Shown here piece by piece: positions 7,804-41,034 of a stretch of DNA of 64,000 nucleotides (position 1 is its first letter; every line of letters starts with the position of its first letter). The stretch is from Chloroflexota bacterium (GTDB lineage: Bacteria > Chloroflexota > UBA11872): positions 1-64,000 of the forward strand of contig JAPOXD010000022.1 of assembly GCA_026707285.1 (NCBI GenBank), in the 5' to 3' direction. The position numbers were made by a program, and so were the translations under genes. Below the pieces are notes generated by a model that saw only the letters and a program-made list of their open reading frames with translations, did not search any database and was not told the origin of the DNA.

Positions 7804-7910
7804 GGCTGGCCCGACCGGCACACCCGAGTCTGTAGGCGCTCACGTCCGTCCACGTCTCCACTAGGGGGCAAGTGCTAGCCCTGCCCCATCGAAAGACCCT
7901 CGCATAGCCC

Positions 7911-8000
7911 TGTAGGGGCGAGTCGCAGACCGGCCCGCCGCCAAGCATCCAGGTTCAACTGGACTGGTTTCCGGCCTCCGCCGGAATGACGACGGGTTTA
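7911..8000. repeat. Dispersed composite repeat, copy 1
   Basis: Begins TGTAGGGGCGAGTCGCAGAC, then CCAAGCATCCAGGTTC and the palindrome TTCCGGCCTCCGCCGGAA followed by TGACGACGGG. A close copy lies at 34359-34440. It fills most of the 242-nt gap between the propeller gene and the XRE gene. No coding evidence is seen in this gap. Confidence 0.7.
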
Positions 8001-32963: not shown

Positions 32964-34283
32964 ATGCGCCCTGCGTCCGTCAAGGCCGTGACCTACAGCG
33001 CGATGTGGGCGTTCTTTCTGCCGTTGGCGGCCTCGCAGGTGCTGCAGCAGGTACGGCATCCGCTGCTCGACGCGGGCATTGCGCGCGGTCTCGAGCCGGC
33101 GGCGTCGCTGGCCGCCTTTGGCGTGGTCAGCGGCGTGGTGCAGATTCTGGGCGCGGCGGGCATCGCGGTGCAGAGCGCCTACCTGGTGCTGGTGCGCGGG
33201 CGCCAGTCCTACCACTTCATGCGCCGCTATACGGCGGTCTACACCCTGGGCATCGTGGGGCTGACGCTGGTCACGGCGCTGCCGGGCAGCGGGCCGTGGT
33301 TCTTCGAGCAACTGATGGGCACGCCCGCGGCGCTGACGCCGCGCGTAGTGCAGATGATGCAGATCGCCGCGCTGGTGCCGGTCTTCAACCTGGCGCGGCT
33401 CTTCTACGTAGCGCAGTTGGCCCATCTGCGGCAGACGCGCGTGGTGTGGGTGGCACCGGCGGTCAGCATCGCATTGCTGTCCGTCCTGGCGCTGGGCGTC
33501 ATCCCCAATGTGCCGGTGGCGGCAAGCGTGGCGGGCGCGACGGTCTGGCTGGTGATCGCTGCCGTCGAGGCCGTGGTGCTTGGGTGGCTGGCCCACCGCG
33601 CGTCGCAACGCGCGCCCTACGGCGATGACCCGGGCGGACAGCCGCCCCTCGACGTACGCCAGGTGACCTGGTTTGTCCTGCCCCTCATCGCCACCCAGTT
33701 CTCACTCGCGGCGGGCCTGCCGCTCACCAATGCGGGACTGCTGCGGCTGACCGATCCAGAGACGTCGGTGGCGGCCCTGCGCGTCGCCATGAGCCTCATC
33801 ATGGTCAGCATGGCCGCGCTGGCCACGTTGCGGCAGGTGGTCCTGGTGATGGCGCAGGACCCCGGCGATCATGCGCGCGTGCGCGCCTTCGTGGTCGGCA
33901 TTTCGGCTGGTCTGACCGCGCTCATGGCGCTCATCGCCTTCACGCCCGTGGGACGGTTTGCGCTGGAGGTGGTGATCGGCGCGCCGCCGCACGTTGCCGA
34001 GGCGGCGCTGCCGGCCCTGCAGATTTTCGTCGCGGTGCCCGCCGTGATGGGGCTGCGGCAGTTCTACTCCGGCCTCACCATGCACCAGCGCCGCACGTCG
34101 CTGGTGGCGGCAGCCGCCATCGGGCGGCTGGTGCTCATGGCCGTCCTGCTGTTCATCGTCGCGCCCGCCGCCGCGCTTGCCGGCGCCTGGGTCGGGGCCA
34201 TGGCCCGCACGGTGAGCATGGCCAGCGAGTCGGCGGCGGCCTATGCGATTGGCCGGCGCTACGTCGGCCGGGCGATTCGGTAG
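32964..34283 (+). CDS. MOP/ANKH-like polytopic membrane transporter
   Basis: A 439-aa protein with about 12 hydrophobic segments in two halves, starting with FFLPLAASQVLQQVRHPLLD. The pattern of paired halves (AAFGVVSGVVQILGAAGIAV; VLPLIATQFSLAAGLPLTN) recalls the MOP flippase superfamily, including MATE and ANKH-type proteins. Substrate is unknown. ATG 32964. It is divergent from the serine protease gene, 118 nt apart. Confidence 0.65.
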   Translation: MRPASVKAVTYSAMWAFFLPLAASQVLQQVRHPLLDAGIARGLEPAASLAAFGVVSGVVQILGAAGIAVQSAYLVLVRGRQSYHFMRRYTAVYTLGIVGLTLVTALPGSGPWFFEQLMGTPAALTPRVVQMMQIAALVPVFNLARLFYVAQLAHLRQTRVVWVAPAVSIALLSVLALGVIPNVPVAASVAGATVWLVIAAVEAVVLGWLAHRASQRAPYGDDPGGQPPLDVRQVTWFVLPLIATQFSLAAGLPLTNAGLLRLTDPETSVAALRVAMSLIMVSMAALATLRQVVLVMAQDPGDHARVRAFVVGISAGLTALMALIAFTPVGRFALEVVIGAPPHVAEAALPALQIFVAVPAVMGLRQFYSGLTMHQRRTSLVAAAAIGRLVLMAVLLFIVAPAAALAGAWVGAMARTVSMASESAAAYAIGRRYVGRAIR

Positions 34284-34358
34284 CGCCCCGCGTCTAGGTC
34301 GCGGATGACCCCCTCCAGCTACCCCCTGTTGGAGACCTTTGCGGAATCCGGTTGGGGC

Positions 34359-34440
34359 GTGTCTCAGACCCGCCCGACGCCAAGCATCCAGATTCGACCG
34401 AACTGGATTCCGGCCTACGCCGGAATGACGAAGGGGTTAC
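34359..34440. repeat. Dispersed composite repeat, copy 2
   Basis: GTCTCAGACCCGCCCGACGC then CCAAGCATCCAGATTC and the palindrome TTCCGGCCTACGCCGGAA then TGACGAAGGGGTT. It matches 7911-8000 over most of its length. It lies in the 192-nt gap between convergent genes. Confidence 0.7.
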
Positions 34441-34475
34441 GCAAAGGTCTCAGCAAAGAATTGGCGGCCACGGAC

Positions 34476-35435
34476 TCAGCCCCCACGGTCCTTCCGCAGC
34501 GCTTCGATGAGCGCATCGTTGCGAGCGGCGACGTAGCGCTCGAACTCGCCGGCTTCCCACGTAAATAGCCCCCGGCCCTCGCGCGCCCCCGTATGACCGG
34601 CAGCCACGGCTTTCTCCAGAAACGCGGGCGGCTCGTCGCTGGCGTCGAGGTCCGGCCCCAGGTAGGTGAAGATCTGGCGATACACGTCCAGCCCCGCCAT
34701 GTCGGCCTGGCGCATGATGCCGAGCACCGGAATGCGCCGCGCCAGCACGCCCTTGATGAGCACGTCGATTTCCTCGGCGGTGGTGACGCCCTTGTCGATC
34801 AGGCTCAGGGCTTCGCGCGCGAGGGCGAACTGCAACCGGTTCATCAGGTAGCCCGGCAGCTCCTTGCGGATGTGCACCGGCTGCTTGTCGATCGATTCGA
34901 GCAGCTCGCGCAGGCCGTTGATGGTGACCGCGTCGGTCGCTTCGCCGGGCGCAATCTCGACGATCGGGATCAGGTGCGGCGGCAGCATCCAGTGGGCCAG
35001 CGCCACGCGCTCGGGGTGGGCGCAGCCGCTGGCGATTTCGCTGATGCTGATGCTGGACGTGTTGCTGGTAAGGATGGCGGGCGGTGGGCAGAGCCGGTCG
35101 AGCTCCGCGAACACGTCCTGCTTGACCTTCAGGTCCTCGGCCACGGCTTCCGCGCCAAAGTCGGCCCCGTCCGCGGCGTCAGCGAGGGTTTCGGCGGCCC
35201 GCAGCCGTCCCACGACCACGTTCACCTCGTCGTCGGCGATCACGCCGGCGCGCACCAGGTCCTGCGCATCCACCCGCGCCTCGGATATGGCCGCCTCGGC
35301 GCGCCCGGCTGCCGCGTCGTACAACGAGACATGGAAACCGCCGCGCGCCAACTCGAGTGCGATCCCATGACCCATGCGTCCGGCGCCCGCCACCACGGCC
35401 CGGCGCCCATTGCCCGCTGTTGAATCAGTCGTCAC
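34476..35435 (-). CDS. 3-hydroxyacyl-CoA dehydrogenase
   Basis: About 319 aa. NAD-binding AVVAGAGRMGHGIALELARGG at the N-terminus, then AVAEDLKVKQDVFAELD, SNTSSISISEIA, the catalytic-His region RVALAHWMLPPHLIPIVEI and the C-terminal GYLMNRLQFALAREALSLID. It oxidises 3-hydroxyacyl-CoA (or acts on a related hydroxyacid such as L-gulonate or carnitine). GTG 35435 is chosen because GGGGGACGGG lies just upstream. No thiolase or enoyl-CoA hydratase lies near, so a full beta-oxidation role is not shown. Confidence 0.85.
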   Translation of the reverse strand: MTTDSTAGNGRRAVVAGAGRMGHGIALELARGGFHVSLYDAAAGRAEAAISEARVDAQDLVRAGVIADDEVNVVVGRLRAAETLADAADGADFGAEAVAEDLKVKQDVFAELDRLCPPPAILTSNTSSISISEIASGCAHPERVALAHWMLPPHLIPIVEIAPGEATDAVTINGLRELLESIDKQPVHIRKELPGYLMNRLQFALAREALSLIDKGVTTAEEIDVLIKGVLARRIPVLGIMRQADMAGLDVYRQIFTYLGPDLDASDEPPAFLEKAVAAGHTGAREGRGLFTWEAGEFERYVAARNDALIEALRKDRGG

Positions 35436-35496
35436 GGTCCCGTCCCCCGCTGCGTTCCACCGGCACCATGAGCATAAGCCCCACGGGCCGGGGAGA

Positions 35497-35502
35497 TACA
35501 CT
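35497..35502 (+). promoter_or_regulatory. Putative -10 box, near-leaderless
   Basis: TACACT, 15 nt before the ATG at 35518. A transcript starting 6-8 nt further would have a leader of under 10 nt. Confidence 0.4.
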
Positions 35503-35517
35503 GCCGGAGTTGGCCGC

Positions 35518-36462
35518 ATGACATCCACAGACACCACCGGGACGCCTTCCGCAGCCGGAGCGACGGACGGCCTGCTGGCCCCCATTGCCGCGGCCTTTGC
35601 GATTGCCGCTCGTCCCGGAGTGCTCGGTCTGGGTTTGGGGGCGGGAGCGGCGATCGGCGCGCTCGGCGGCTGCGCCGTCGCGCTGGCCTACATCCGCTCG
35701 CCCGCGGCCATCCCGTTCTTCGTCATCGCGGCCGCGCTCATCGTCGTCGCCTGGTCCATTGCCGCGGGCGCCGTGGCGGCTTCGAGCCGGCGGGACGCCA
35801 CGCTCGCGGCGGGGCTGCGACGAGCCTTGGGGCGAGCCGTAACGCTCGTGGCGGCGGCGATTCCGGCCGCGCTGGTCGTGGGCGTGCTGCTGGCGGCGCA
35901 GTTGGGCGTGTTCGCCCTCACGCAGATGGGCGCGCGCGGGCCGCTGGGCGAGCTTCCGGACCGGCCGTTGGCGCTGATCGCGCTGGTCTACACGCTGATC
36001 TTTGCCATGAACGTGATGGTCATCGTCCCCACCGGCGCCCTGCTGTGGCTGGTGGTGCCGCACGTGATGGGCGGCGCCGGACCCGTCGAGGCGCACGCAC
36101 GGGTGCGCGCCGCGTGCTGGGCGCGTCCCGGCCTGGTGCTGCGCACCATGGTGGGCGTGATCACCATGGCCAGCGCCGCCGCCGCCGCGCTGCTCGGCAT
36201 CGCGGCGCTGGGTTTGGTGGTGGCGTCGTTCGCCCAGATCCTGGGTGCGGGCGAGACCTTCCTGCTGCGATTCTCCGAGCCGCTGGTGTCGGATATGTTC
36301 ATGACGGTGACGGTCGACAACCTCGCGGCGGTGGTCGTGATGGCGACCGGCTTCGGCGCCGCCATCGGCGCGGCCACCGGTCCCAGCAGCATGCTAGGGG
36401 TCGCGGGCGGGGCCTATCTGGCGCGGCACATCGGCGAAGTCGAGCCGACGCCGACCGCCTAG
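35518..36462 (+). CDS. Polytopic membrane protein, function unknown
   Basis: About 314 aa, with roughly six hydrophobic helices and no soluble domain. Helical blocks include VLGLGLGAGAAIGALGG, IPFFVIAAALIVVAWSIAAG, LVYTLIFAMNVMVIVPTGALLW and MVGVITMASAAAAALLG. It is not recognised as a named family; the overall look is of the DUF6159/stator-like or DUF975-like integral proteins. ATG 35518 follows a TACACT box. Its stop overlaps the opposite-strand zinc-ribbon gene by 4 nt. Confidence 0.65.
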   Translation: MTSTDTTGTPSAAGATDGLLAPIAAAFAIAARPGVLGLGLGAGAAIGALGGCAVALAYIRSPAAIPFFVIAAALIVVAWSIAAGAVAASSRRDATLAAGLRRALGRAVTLVAAAIPAALVVGVLLAAQLGVFALTQMGARGPLGELPDRPLALIALVYTLIFAMNVMVIVPTGALLWLVVPHVMGGAGPVEAHARVRAACWARPGLVLRTMVGVITMASAAAAALLGIAALGLVVASFAQILGAGETFLLRFSEPLVSDMFMTVTVDNLAAVVVMATGFGAAIGAATGPSSMLGVAGGAYLARHIGEVEPTPTA

Positions 36463-36650
36463 CCGCAGGCGCCGAAGCCGCAGGCCGGGCAGACCAGACA
36501 GAGCCCCTGCGCGCGCAGCGGCGCGGCGCAGTCGGGACAGGTCGGCGCGGGCCGCCGCATCACGGGCGGCGCTGCCGGCGGACGCGGGCGCACATCCCCG
36601 ATGCGGGGAGGGGAAAGCGTCGCCACCGGTGGGTCTTTCAGGGGAGCCAT
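36459..36650 (-). CDS. Small zinc-ribbon protein
   Basis: A 63-aa peptide: a Pro-rich N-terminal half and a C-terminal ribbon CPDCAAPLRAQ...CLVCPACGFGACG. The CPxC...CxxCG-x-x-x-CG end resembles the zinc ribbon at the C-terminus of adenosylcobalamin-dependent ribonucleotide reductases, but no reductase gene is here. ATG 36650 lies 6 nt after a TATAGT box on the minus strand, so the mRNA is probably leaderless. Confidence 0.6.
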   Translation of the reverse strand: MAPLKDPPVATLSPPRIGDVRPRPPAAPPVMRRPAPTCPDCAAPLRAQGLCLVCPACGFGACG

Positions 36651-36656
36651 GGAGGC

Positions 36657-36662
36657 ACTATA
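36657..36662 (-). promoter_or_regulatory. Putative -10 box for a leaderless transcript
   Basis: TATAGT on the minus strand, 6 nt before the ATG of the zinc-ribbon gene. Confidence 0.4.
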
Positions 36663-36880
36663 GCAGCTTGTTCGGTGTTTGTCTGGTATTACGCGAAGCG
36701 ATCGCCCCGATCCCAGAGGGCGTCAGCCTGCATCAGATGGACGGCAGCGGCGTGTGGAGTGGTGCACATAGGCAGGTTCTCAGCGTGACGATGCTTACAC
36801 TGCGGTCCAGATGCGTTCGGGGCGGGGCCGATGTGTCGCGCTAAGCGCCAATCTGTCGTTTGAAGGGCAAGCTAATCGAG

Positions 36881-39760
36881 ATGTATGGACGCCTGATGCC
36901 TAGTCGATCACGTGGGCGCCGGATGGGGCTGGCGGCCGTAGTCGCGGCGTTCACGGTGCTGCTGGCGCTCACACCCCAAGCCCGCGCGTTGGACTGTGAC
37001 GGCGTCGACCTCGGTGACGGCTGCCTCTTCACGATCACCGGCGGAGACACGCCTGAAACCGACGACGGCTACGCGGTGACCAATGTCCTCGGTGTACCAA
37101 TGTGGGACTTCGTGCGCGACAAGAGCGCGCAGGACATCGGCTACCCCATCAGTCAGCGCTGGGTCGAGGGCCCCTTCACCTTGCAGGCCTTCCAGAAGGT
37201 GATCCTGCAGTGGGATCCCGGCAAGCAGCGCATGAACTACTACAACACGCTGGACGTGCTGGCGAACCGCTATCCCGACGTCGAGTTGCCGTTCGTGCCG
37301 TCGCACCAGGTGCTGGAAGCAGATCGGGACGCGGACTTCGCCACCATCACGCGCAACCACCTGGCGCTACTGGACCAGAACGAGGCGATCAAGGACCAAT
37401 TCCTGAGCGAGCCCAATTGGCTGAATCTCTATGGGCTGCCGATCCGCTACGAGGAGCGGGAGGTCGATGGCCGGGCGGGCGGGGTGCAGATGCTGCGCGC
37501 CCAGCGCACGGTCTTCGTGGTCTGGAACGTGCCGGCCCCCGGCACCACCGTCGGCCGGGTGAATCTGCAAAACGTGCCGGACAAAGTGAAGAAGCTCAGC
37601 AACGTGATCATTCCCGAGGCGGCGAAGGTCCCGGCTACTCGTGACGGCAGAATCAACGCGGCGATCGAAGAAATCGCATGGGTTCAGGACGGCCTCGGAC
37701 ATGGTGAGGCAGTTCGAGTCGAGCAACTCCGCGAACTCGCCACATTGTCCCCGCCGGCCTTCTGGGCGCTCGTGCGGAACCGCGGCATCCATGCGACATC
37801 GGCATATAGCCGGGACCTAGAACCGACACGCACGGTTGGGGAAATCATTGGGCGGATCGGGTTCATAGCGCATACGAGTCCGGTAGCCGCCGAGATGCTC
37901 GCGACCATGCCGTTTCTCGACACGTTCGACGGGATTGATCTTGTGCCCTTGTCTACGCTGCTGATGATTGTGCTGCTTGCACCGGACGAACTGGAACCGA
38001 CCATCTCGCATTTGGCGTCGGTCGGGGGACTCACGGACGAACAGCGAACGTCCTTGCCGTTGCTCCATCTCAAGCTGAGGCATCCGGAGGCAGCCCGAGC
38101 GCTGGAAGCGCTGCCTTGGATTCAGGACGGGATTTCGCCACCGCCGCAAGACAATGACGGCAGTCCAATCGGACATAGCAACGAAGCTCACATGCTTACA
38201 TTTCTGATGGAATGGCAGCTGCGAGGATATCGGAGCCATCTTTCGGCGCTGCTAAGCCGCCCATGGTTTCAAGACGGCCTCGATCAACGCGAGCATGCGA
38301 TCGTATTCAATGTGATGTCGGAGATAACCTCCTTCGAACGACGGGCAGCTCTACAGATATTGAACATGCCATTTCTGCAAACTATAGGCGAAGGCGACTT
38401 GACCATCGTCGACATTCTCAACTCTGTCGCAGTCGAAGGCGATCTACAAGGCTTGTTGTCTCGGGCGGCGCTGCGCGATGGCATTCGGGACGGCCAGATA
38501 CCGCTCGTCGCGCTGGAGTATCTCAGTCTACGCAACCCAAGCGCGGCAGCGGCCATTCGGGCTGTGCCGTGGCTTCGGGATGGCATTTCAGTCACTGAAG
38601 TGGGACCTGTAGTAGCGCTGCAAAAGCTGGCGCTTGAATCGACGCAACTCTTGAAAGCAATCCTGGACAAAGACTGGGTGCTAGACGGCATCAATCCCGA
38701 CGAGCTATCCATAGTTAAGAGTCTTACGTATATGGTTAGCAGAGACGAATCCAGGGCTTTGAGTATCGTGCAAATGCCCTTTCTCGAAACTGTCGAAGCG
38801 GCGGACGACTCAGCCGTCGACCAATTGGCGCAATTCCATCACAACTCGACCCTTATGAGCTACTTGAATCACGTCCTCTCGCACCCGAACCTGGGCGGCG
38901 GCGCAAGAGATGAGCACGTGCCGCCCGTGACGGCGCTGCTCAGCGTCGCCTATCACGCCGATCCGGAGTCGCGCAGCTACCTATACAGAACGCTCCTGGA
39001 TCCCGACGCAGTAACCATTGAGCAACGGGTCATCACGCTGCCCCTTTCGGGGGACGTGCTATTGGCAGTAGTCCGCACACGAGACGGGGCGGCGAACAGC
39101 ATGGACTGGCTGGAGCGGTCGCTTCGCAGCCACGAGCACTTTATGGGCGTGGCTCTCCCGGGCAACTATGTCTCCATTCTAGTCGCGGATGTAGGGCGCG
39201 GAGGGGGTGGGCCAAGCGGCATTCTGTATTTCTCCGCAACACATCGTGAACCCGTCGGGGTAATTGCTCACGAGTCGGCGCATATCTACATGGCGTTTGC
39301 CCCACGTTGGCTGGCGGAAGGTGGGGCTACCTTCTTGGAGTGGATTGCGGTAAACCAGGGAGCGCCGCCGCACAATTTCAGGATTGGCGTCGACTCCTGT
39401 GAGTCCGCCCGAAGCCTGTCCGAGCTTGAGCAAAAGACGCCAAGCGTCATTGACTCGGGCTCAATCTGCCACTACAGCATGGGGTTTGGGCTGTTCTATG
39501 ACCTGTACAACAGCTTGGGAGATGCCGAATTCCGGCGAGGGTTTCGAGAACTGTATCTGAGGCTGCTTGCGAGCCCCACTTACTTCACCAGCTCCGAGGA
39601 ACGGAATCGCCTTTTGGATCGAGATCCCTCCGCATCCGAATGCAGTGGCGCGGAACGGATCCGTTGCTTCCTGCGAATTCAGTTTGTGGCGGGGGCGGCA
39701 GATCCGGCGATTGCGGCTATAGCGTCGGACGTAATCGACCGCTGGTACTACGGGCCGTAA
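36881..39760 (+). CDS. Exported gluzincin-like metallopeptidase with WxxDG/MPFL helical repeats
   Basis: About 959 aa. Signal peptide with GLAAVVAAFTVLLALTPQARA near the N-terminus. A GYPIS/FQKVILQWDP module (about residues 60-130) resembles that of the 5902 protein. Residues about 250-680 contain repeats around aromatic W-x-x-D-G motifs (Trp267, 413, 462, 564, 599) alternating with MPFLDT, MPFLQT and MPFLET helices. The C-terminal domain has HESAH (His797-His801), matching HExxH, and a Glu in RWLAEGGATFLEW (Glu813). This suits a zinc peptidase. The coding region is less GC-rich in its second half than the neighbours. ATG 36881 is chosen; ATG 36896, 36923 and TTG 36860 also fit. Repeat family not recognised. 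Confidence 0.75.
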   Translation: MYGRLMPSRSRGRRMGLAAVVAAFTVLLALTPQARALDCDGVDLGDGCLFTITGGDTPETDDGYAVTNVLGVPMWDFVRDKSAQDIGYPISQRWVEGPFTLQAFQKVILQWDPGKQRMNYYNTLDVLANRYPDVELPFVPSHQVLEADRDADFATITRNHLALLDQNEAIKDQFLSEPNWLNLYGLPIRYEEREVDGRAGGVQMLRAQRTVFVVWNVPAPGTTVGRVNLQNVPDKVKKLSNVIIPEAAKVPATRDGRINAAIEEIAWVQDGLGHGEAVRVEQLRELATLSPPAFWALVRNRGIHATSAYSRDLEPTRTVGEIIGRIGFIAHTSPVAAEMLATMPFLDTFDGIDLVPLSTLLMIVLLAPDELEPTISHLASVGGLTDEQRTSLPLLHLKLRHPEAARALEALPWIQDGISPPPQDNDGSPIGHSNEAHMLTFLMEWQLRGYRSHLSALLSRPWFQDGLDQREHAIVFNVMSEITSFERRAALQILNMPFLQTIGEGDLTIVDILNSVAVEGDLQGLLSRAALRDGIRDGQIPLVALEYLSLRNPSAAAAIRAVPWLRDGISVTEVGPVVALQKLALESTQLLKAILDKDWVLDGINPDELSIVKSLTYMVSRDESRALSIVQMPFLETVEAADDSAVDQLAQFHHNSTLMSYLNHVLSHPNLGGGARDEHVPPVTALLSVAYHADPESRSYLYRTLLDPDAVTIEQRVITLPLSGDVLLAVVRTRDGAANSMDWLERSLRSHEHFMGVALPGNYVSILVADVGRGGGGPSGILYFSATHREPVGVIAHESAHIYMAFAPRWLAEGGATFLEWIAVNQGAPPHNFRIGVDSCESARSLSELEQKTPSVIDSGSICHYSMGFGLFYDLYNSLGDAEFRRGFRELYLRLLASPTYFTSSEERNRLLDRDPSASECSGAERIRCFLRIQFVAGAADPAIAAIASDVIDRWYYGP

Positions 39761-39853
39761 GCCGTCGCTCGATAGCCGAGGACACCGCCGAGGCAGAGTG
39801 TCCGTGATCGTGGGGCAGGAAGTGGCAAACCCAAGTCACTCCGCACCCGCGCC

Positions 39854-39859
39854 TATACT
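39854..39859 (+). promoter_or_regulatory. Putative -10 box of the M20 peptidase gene
   Basis: TATACT, 30 nt before the ATG at 39889, the same spacing as at mtnA. Confidence 0.4.
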
Positions 39860-39888
39860 GCGGCGCTCCCTTCGCTGAGGATCCGCCC

Positions 39889-41034
39889 ATGTCCGCCCTG
39901 GTTTCGCGCCTGGCCGATCTCGTGGCGATCAACAGCGTCAACGCCAGCCTGCCCGGAGGCCCGGGCGAACAGGCCATGGCGGACTACGTGGCGCAGGCCG
40001 CGCGCGCCATGGGCGCGGAGGTGGAGCTGTATGAGGTCGAGCCGGGCCGTCCCAACCTGCTGGCCCGAATCGACCGCGGCCGCCCACGCACGCTGATGTT
40101 CGAGTGCCACCTGGACACGGTGGGGCTGGCGCCGATGCCCGACGCGCTGAATCCGCGCATCGAGGGCGGGCGGCTCTATGGACGCGGCTCCGCCGATCCC
40201 AAGGGTTCGCTGGCCGCCATGCTGAGCGTGCTGGAGAGCGCCGCCGCGGACCCGGCGTTCCCGGTCGATGTCTGGCTGGCGGGGTCCATGGACGAGGAGA
40301 TCACCATGCGCGGATCCCGGGCGCTGGCCGAGCGCCGGCCCGCCGTTGACGCGGTGATCGTGGGCGAGCCGACGAACTTGCAGCCCATCGTGGCGCACAA
40401 GGGCGTGCTGCGGTGGCGCGTGCGCACCACGGGCGTGGCGGCGCACAGCGCGACGCCGGAGCGCGGGCGCAACGCCATCTTCGACATGCAGACGGCAATC
40501 GGCGCGCTGCGCGCGGGCATCGAGCCCGGCCTCGCGCGGTCGTCGCATCCGCGCCTGGGTCCCGCGACCTGGAGCGTGGGCGTGATCGAGGGCGGCGAGG
40601 CGGTGAACGTGGTGCCGGACGCCTGCCAGATCGACTGCGACCGGCGGCTGCTGCCCGGCGAGGAGCCGGACGCGGTGCTTGCCGAGGTGGACCGGGCGCT
40701 CGATGAGGCGCGTCGGGTCGACGCCGGACTCCGGGTCGAGCGCGAGGCGCCCTACGTCCACGTGCCGCCGATGGAGACCGACGCTGATGAGCCAATCGTG
40801 CGCGCGACCGTGCAGGCGCTTACCGACGCCGGTCGCGATTCGACCCTGGCCGCCGTGGCCTACGCCACCGACGCCTCCATGCTGGCGTCCATCGGCGGGC
40901 TGCCCGCCGTCGTGCTGGGACCGGGGGACATTGCGCAGGCGCACACGAACGATGAATGGATCGAGTTGGCCGAGCTCGAGGCGGCCGTGGGCGTCTATCG
41001 CGGAATCTGCGAGGCCTTTGCCGATGCGGTCTGA
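39889..41034 (+). CDS. M20-family peptidase/deacylase (ArgE/DapE type)
   Basis: 381 aa. Metal-binding FECHLDTVGLAP (His and Asp), GRGSADPKGSLAAML, the catalytic Glu pair in AGSMDEEITM, and metal-ligand Glu in VGEPTN are typical of ArgE/DapE/CPG2. The dimerisation domain begins at HKGVLRWRVRTTGVAAHSA. ArgE, DapE or a dipeptidase are all possible; the neighbourhood does not decide. ATG 39889 follows a TATACT box. Confidence 0.85.
   Translation: MSALVSRLADLVAINSVNASLPGGPGEQAMADYVAQAARAMGAEVELYEVEPGRPNLLARIDRGRPRTLMFECHLDTVGLAPMPDALNPRIEGGRLYGRGSADPKGSLAAMLSVLESAAADPAFPVDVWLAGSMDEEITMRGSRALAERRPAVDAVIVGEPTNLQPIVAHKGVLRWRVRTTGVAAHSATPERGRNAIFDMQTAIGALRAGIEPGLARSSHPRLGPATWSVGVIEGGEAVNVVPDACQIDCDRRLLPGEEPDAVLAEVDRALDEARRVDAGLRVEREAPYVHVPPMETDADEPIVRATVQALTDAGRDSTLAAVAYATDASMLASIGGLPAVVLGPGDIAQAHTNDEWIELAELEAAVGVYRGICEAFADAV

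Follow-up and report, generated by a model that had tools for sequence, protein, structure and literature searches.

The window, that is, the whole 64,000-nucleotide stretch of Chloroflexota DNA that was analyzed, carries on its forward strand the gene for a putative exported metallopeptidase (Table 1); the use of an alternative TTG start at position 36860 would add 7 amino acids. The encoded protein consists of four parts: a signal peptide (residues 1-36), an N-terminal module (approximately residues 36-253, hereafter the N-module), a solenoid (residues 255-703), and a peptidase domain (residues 705-959). When residues 1-36 were inspected by eye, the classic pattern of a Sec signal peptide was observed, with a basic start, a hydrophobic core, and ARA before LDC; judging from this pattern, the protein is likely exported from the cytoplasm, as the original prediction had it. 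The whole protein matched only PF01433 (Peptidase_M1) in Pfam, at an E value of 0.17, which is far under the cut-off; no match was obtained in NCBIfam, and nothing credible was found by phmmer against PDB. Since relatives were absent from IMG/VR and from plasmid and phage records, a mobile or viral origin was rejected. The drop in GC content described for the second half of the gene was confirmed: GC3 was 0.85 for residues 1-255, 0.65 for the solenoid, and 0.63 for the peptidase domain, compared with 0.87-0.90 in the neighboring genes. Lower GC3 was common to every N-module-bearing family member checked within the genus, and hence foreign origin was rejected as the sole cause of the drop.

Table 1. 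Features of the metallopeptidase gene and its locus (positions are those of the window).
Feature	Position	Strand	Remark
Single-gene cassette (gene, approximately 186 bp upstream, and approximately 80 bp downstream)	36695..39840	+	Absent at the site in three congeners
Whole ORF, 959 aa from ATG at 36881	36881..39760	+	
Predicted signal peptide, residues 1-36	36881..36988	+	Basic N-terminus, hydrophobic core, ARA|LDC, read by eye
N-terminal exported module, approximately residues 36-253, 218 aa	36986..37639	+	Without Pfam or PDB match
Repeat block missing from the same-locus gene of G004, approximately 980 bp	37635..38613	+	L162 aligns with 36456-37634, then 38614-41034
Predicted WxxDG alpha-solenoid, residues 255-703	37643..38989	+	AlphaFold2 model of the region alone; no Foldseek match
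Unit motif WVQDGL (Trp267)	37679..37696	+	
Degenerate unit motif (as read) MPFLDT (343)	37907..37924	+	
Unit motif WIQDGI (Trp413)	38117..38134	+	
Unit motif WFQDGL (Trp462)	38264..38281	+	
Degenerate unit motif (as read) MPFLQT (496)	38366..38383	+	
Unit motif WLRDGI (Trp564)	38570..38587	+	
Unit motif WVLDGI (Trp599)	38675..38692	+	
Degenerate unit motif (as read) MPFLET (632)	38774..38791	+	
M1-like gluzincin domain, residues 705-959	38993..39757	+	PDB profile match ERAP2; Foldseek 6kp0
HESAH, residues 797-801, predicted zinc site	39269..39283	+	Both His and the Glu invariant over 19 intact members
Glu813, predicted third zinc ligand (HExxH-x11-E)	39317..39319	+	
Tyr865 of CxYxxG, putative equivalent of the catalytic Tyr of M1 by alignment	39473..39475	+	Invariant in A5

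In the solenoid region, the W-[IVFL]-x-D-G-[IL] motif was located at residues 267, 413, 462, 564, and 599, exactly as claimed, and the MPFL[DQE]T motif was present at residues 343, 496, and 632. The two had been described as alternating, which is roughly so, although along the protein they follow each other as W, M, W, W, M, W, W, M. The MPFL[DQE]T motif occupies the same structural position and was read as a degenerate WxxDG motif, in which W is replaced with F and DG with T. The repetition exceeded that expected by chance: the best ungapped 30-residue self-match of the protein scored 80 versus 22-35 in 30 shuffles. When a repeat HMM made from the other bacterial family (f5) alone was used, five units were matched in the protein with i-E values of 3e-11 to 2e-4; in the control, 1 match at E<=0.001 was obtained among 500 shuffles. 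The repeat unit is approximately 35 amino acids long, and tandem copies in relatives are spaced 33-35 amino acids apart (for example, at 213, 248, 281, 316, 349, and 384 in L039). Its core consensus is LPLTELALESPELAAAIASLPWVQDGLT, followed by a few residues that include a conserved Glu. W, D, G, W, D, E, and one Leu were invariant across 12 aligned repeat doublets, and the Trp, Asp, and Gly positions are conserved across two bacterial families.

The solenoid modelled alone by AlphaFold2, from 16 sequences, had a mean pLDDT of 90.6 and a pTM of 0.84, and the fold comparisons below rest on that model. Each unit was predicted to comprise three helices, namely a long one, a short one, and one of 4 residues at PWxxDG. 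Hence, both elements anticipated earlier, a helical solenoid and a gluzincin domain, were predicted, the solenoid with high confidence. The repeat family, which the earlier reading had not recognized, gave no match in Pfam, PDB sequences, or Foldseek searches against PDB or BFVD. Specifically, the best Foldseek match of the solenoid in PDB was to unrelated GPCRs (E value, 0.72; probability, 0.09), a designed PPR gave an E value of 5 and a TM of 0.16, and no similar structure was found among the viral models of BFVD. The repeat profile found nothing credible in PDB sequences, family members did not match the Pfam HEAT, ARM, TPR, PPR, and Sel1 HMMs at E<=1, and no relevant literature was found on the WxxDG motif or on solenoids in Chloroflexi. 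The predicted structure resembles HEAT/ARM, TPR, and PPR solenoids in its stacked helices, approximately 35 residues per unit, and superhelix, whereas the third, 4-residue helix at the conserved PWxxDG distinguishes the WxxDG unit from them. By all the tests available, the modelled WxxDG repeats would thus represent a new alpha-solenoid family. Within the phylum Chloroflexota, the scope in which the distribution was counted and for which every statement of restriction here holds, the repeat was found in 22 of 400 genomes, all 22 belonging to two families of one class. Repeat number varied among homologues, a point raised in the original prediction.

The zinc site reported as HESAH...WLAEGGATFLE was also observed, with HESAH at residues 797-801 and Glu813 eleven residues after the motif. 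When the profile A5, consisting of 19 intact peptidase domains, was searched against PDB, ERAP2 was matched at an E value of 3.4e-11; there were 86 matches at E<=10, and those listed were M1-family enzymes. Likewise, Foldseek of the full model gave 6kp0 at an E value of 1e-4, and all among the 50 matches listed were M1 enzymes. The domain shares with the M1 aminopeptidases (ERAP1/2, PSA, APN, LTA4H, and M1dr) the catalytic profile, the HExxH, the WLxEGxA third-ligand helix, the CxYxxG...LG..F..G helices, and the presence of an alpha-helical repeat domain beside the catalytic domain. In contrast to these enzymes, the spacing from HExxH to the third-ligand Glu is x11 (x11-x21 over 23 intact members) and not x18, the GAMEN exopeptidase loop was not found in the aligned members (GGGGPSG occurs here instead), and extra conserved cysteines are present. 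Furthermore, the helical domain is not HEAT and precedes the catalytic domain, which ends the protein, so that a C-terminal HEAT domain IV is absent. Two-domain M1 enzymes likewise lack domain IV. The absence of GAMEN and the x11 spacing indicate an M1-like domain rather than an M1 aminopeptidase; the domain is M1-like in fold and probably in chemistry, with two defining features of M1 aminopeptidases failing. The layout HExxH ... W-x-x-E-G-x-A is also that of Peptidase MA-like gluzincins (Pfam Peptidase_MA_2 and similar), and the protein shares it; no match to these Pfam families was obtained at E<=10.

We gathered 45 ORFs with the peptidase domain, among which HExxH and the third ligand were kept in 23 and the zinc site was lost in 22; the Cys-x-Tyr element was present in 19 of the 23 intact members. 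Loss of the HExxH in close homologues, which had been named as counting against the original prediction, therefore occurs in the family at large, but both same-locus relatives retain the motif. The third ligand and Tyr are likewise kept in the window protein and these two relatives, and the domain identity is just 56-60%. The dN/dS values were 0.10-0.19 in the four inactive pairs tested and 0.14 in one intact pair, indicating purifying selection. In L049 (G015), which is 68% identical to the intact L045, REVAR replaces HExxH, both zinc His being changed to Arg; the sequences suggest that the active site was lost fairly recently. The repeat proteins L127-L134 (G008-G016, genus g2) form a conserved group in which paired WPTxCVELNDIVExHLGN modules are combined with a peptidase domain that lacks HExxH.

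These observations bear on the strongest rival explanation, namely that the protein is mainly a binding protein or adhesin that recognizes a partner through a surface built by the solenoid and the peptidase fold, any catalysis being incidental or of secondary importance. It is favored by the loss of HExxH in 22 of 45 members, by the purifying selection on the tested inactive pairs, which is about as strong as in the intact pair, by the recurrence of the pseudopeptidases carrying the WPTxC module, which one genus has in seven or more genomes, and by the fact that protein-protein interaction is a common role of pseudopeptidases (PMC11266112), whereas the preservation of HExxH, the third ligand, and the Tyr at the present locus, at such low identity, argues against it. 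We regard this explanation as unlikely for the window protein; a binding role with optional catalysis and a catalytic role may perhaps coexist in the family.

The N-module, a part absent from the original prediction, showed no match in Pfam and PDB, and its own structure model was poor (pLDDT < 50). An identity with LGFP repeats was unsupported, as 12 diverse N-modules did not match PF08310. Homologues were found at loci L020-L029, L065-L094, and L139-L157; the identity was 70-76% at several other sites of the genome, with more distant copies elsewhere. All of the 41 class genomes carried the module, each with 1-21 copies, as did 71 of the 400 phylum genomes. In those proteins, it precedes other, unrelated payloads, which were assigned by Pfam to LRR, RCC1, M23, CAP, GSDH, and beta-lactamase, and by eye to glycosidase-, sortase-, HtrA-, and cytochrome-like proteins. 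A sorbosone-dehydrogenase-like protein, L028:2807-4594 (+), bears the exported module at its C-terminal rather than its N-terminal end. In the N-module tree, payload type required 5 changes and genome 19; the copies thus track payload type and not genome, which suggests that the fusions are mostly old. By the same counts, concerted homogenization of N-modules within a genome was unsupported.

The repeats and the peptidase domain were found joined behind three or more different N-terminal modules, the others being FVLGFKTLRDLIGHE in the second bacterial family, the paired WPTxCVELNDIVE, or an unrelated start. Several variant arrangements were also observed. In L125:1583-4519 (-) of G004, the order is reversed, the N-module being followed by the peptidase domain and then, at the C-terminal end, by four or more WxxDG repeats. 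In L138:2672-5617 (+) of G036, a single WxxDG unit precedes an apparent NHL beta-propeller, so that the repeat is present there without the peptidase. The repeat-only ORF L135:7329-9152 (-) and L054, in genus g13, are repeat-only or interrupted, with stops in the aligned frame, and are probably decaying copies.

At the locus itself, whose cassette behavior the original prediction had not noted, the flank DNA was 87-93% identical across five congeners, and the distance between the left and right flank motifs was 3154 bp in the window versus 12 bp in G001, G002, and G003. The gene was present in 3 of 6 congeners and the site was exactly empty in the other 3; besides the window, the filled sites were those of G004 and G005. 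A draft MAG assembly could misjoin repeats, yet three filled and three empty sites were found at one position. The same-locus gene of G004 lacks the repeat block given in Table 1, and the N-terminal part of that of G005 differs over 36690-37654. In their flanks, G003 (empty) and G004 (filled) were about equally close to the window and G005 (filled) was further; this pattern makes two or more gain or loss events likely.

The substitution rates differed along the locus. In comparison with G004 and G005, the dS was 0.18-0.41 for the flanking genes and 1.2-1.7 for the payload, a value near saturation that reads as much above the flanks and not as a time; the N-module at the locus had a dS of 0.48. 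The low-GC3 family pair L020/L142 (G000-G003), which are vertical-looking orthologues, had a dS of 0.27 at equal GC3, indicating that low GC3 alone does not explain the payload dS, and this explanation was unsupported. The simplest reading is that the payload was exchanged with divergent donors. Apart from the gene, a multicopy element of approximately 122 bp lies at 34331-34452, with a second partial copy at 7909-8000; when 33000-36440 was used as the query, approximately 40-60 matches per congener genome were obtained, most of them at 34331-34452.

The nearest named records to the protein were the MAGs RHO3_bin_74, COS2_bin_4, RHO3_bin_23, and SB0662_bin_61. The RHO and COS codes would correspond to Rhopaloeides odorabile and Coscinoderma matthewsi, two sponges in a reef-sponge MAG study (PMC8163846). 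ANK, LRR, TPR, HEAT, and WD40 proteins are discussed as mediators of the interaction between sponges and their symbionts (PMC6306507; PMC8163846). The present protein resembles these as a repeat protein in Chloroflexota near sponge-code MAGs, and LRR and RCC1 proteins of the genome bear the same N-module; it differs from them in two ways, as the WxxDG repeat belongs to no catalogued type and is joined to a peptidase. We hypothesize that its target might belong to the sponge.

A second explanation is that a polymer-degrading symbiont secretes the protein as an ordinary nutritional protease, with the solenoid as a mere spacer. The glycosidase-like and other hydrolase payloads behind the N-module are consistent with such a lifestyle, as is the degradation of dissolved organic matter proposed for sponge Chloroflexi (PMC6306507). 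However, conservation of Trp, Asp, and Gly over two bacterial families, persistence of inactive copies, and a payload turnover much faster than that of the neighbors would all be unexpected for a spacer or a generic protease, and we consider this explanation somewhat less probable than an adhesin. A secreted toxin-like effector, in which a constant N-terminal module delivers C-terminal payloads that vary, in the manner of polymorphic toxin systems, would match the constant N-terminus, variable C-terminus, and cassette turnover, but is very improbable because the cassette is one gene only, without a small immunity-type gene, and the payloads are LRR, RCC1, M23, CAP, and beta-lactamase-like proteins with no nucleases or pore formers.

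Taken together, these findings suggest, with a probability of roughly 0.58, that the protein is an exported, surface-tethered, M1-like zinc peptidase whose solenoid binds a partner or gates substrate and whose gene is exchanged as a one-gene cassette. The computations themselves show the architecture, the fold class of both halves, the repeat distribution, the catalytic residues, the presence or absence of the cassette, and the divergence of the payload; export, tethering, catalysis, the part played by the solenoid, and the target are inferred from them. The signal peptide would direct the protein out of the cytoplasm, and the N-module would most likely hold it on the cell envelope, because the module recurs on many unrelated exported proteins. 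The solenoid, as a curved scaffold of helices placed immediately ahead of the catalytic domain, may bind a specific partner; alternatively, it may restrict which peptides reach the zinc site. This job is likened to that of the C-terminal HEAT domain of classical M1 aminopeptidases, domain IV, which mediates binding of the substrate C-terminus and closes over the active site (PMC10343166). By this analogy, domain IV is a working counterpart of the solenoid in outline, and the solenoid is no member of that domain family. No gating contact between the solenoid and the active site could be read in the predicted models.

For catalysis, His797, His801, and Glu813 are the putative zinc ligands, Glu798 would be the general base, and Tyr865, which does not vary among the 19 intact members and whose position in the sequence corresponds to that of the M1 Tyr, may stabilize the transition state, a role taken from M1 enzymes (PMC10343166). 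M1 enzymes close their cleft and hold the N-terminus of the substrate by means of GAMEN and one residue from the N-terminal domain (PMC10343166); without GAMEN, an open cleft would be expected here, and thereby endopeptidase or non-aminopeptidase cleavage. Catalysis may not be the conserved function, as approximately half of the family has lost the zinc site. The one-gene exchange and the payload rearrangement would be as for a surface protein with an ever-changing target.

More tentatively, and as a possibility that we hold well below the reading above, the WxxDG repeats may be a new alpha-solenoid class, apparently found in one Chloroflexota class only, that provides a surface protein system with its variable portion for recognition. 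Such a system would diversify by swaps of the N-terminal anchor, gain and loss of repeats, loss or retention of the peptidase, and exchange of entire one-gene cassettes among strains; it would probably be directed at a host or competitor target that itself changes. A solenoid without a Pfam or PDB counterpart would constitute a new structural repeat class, and a helical domain before an M1-like catalytic domain would be a second route to a selectivity domain in gluzincins. The N-module, nameless in Pfam, would annotate a large share of the exported proteins in the class. Furthermore, the matched intact and inactive copies, in bacteria with their nearest named relatives among sponge MAGs, could be used to test cutting versus binding by symbiont repeat proteins.
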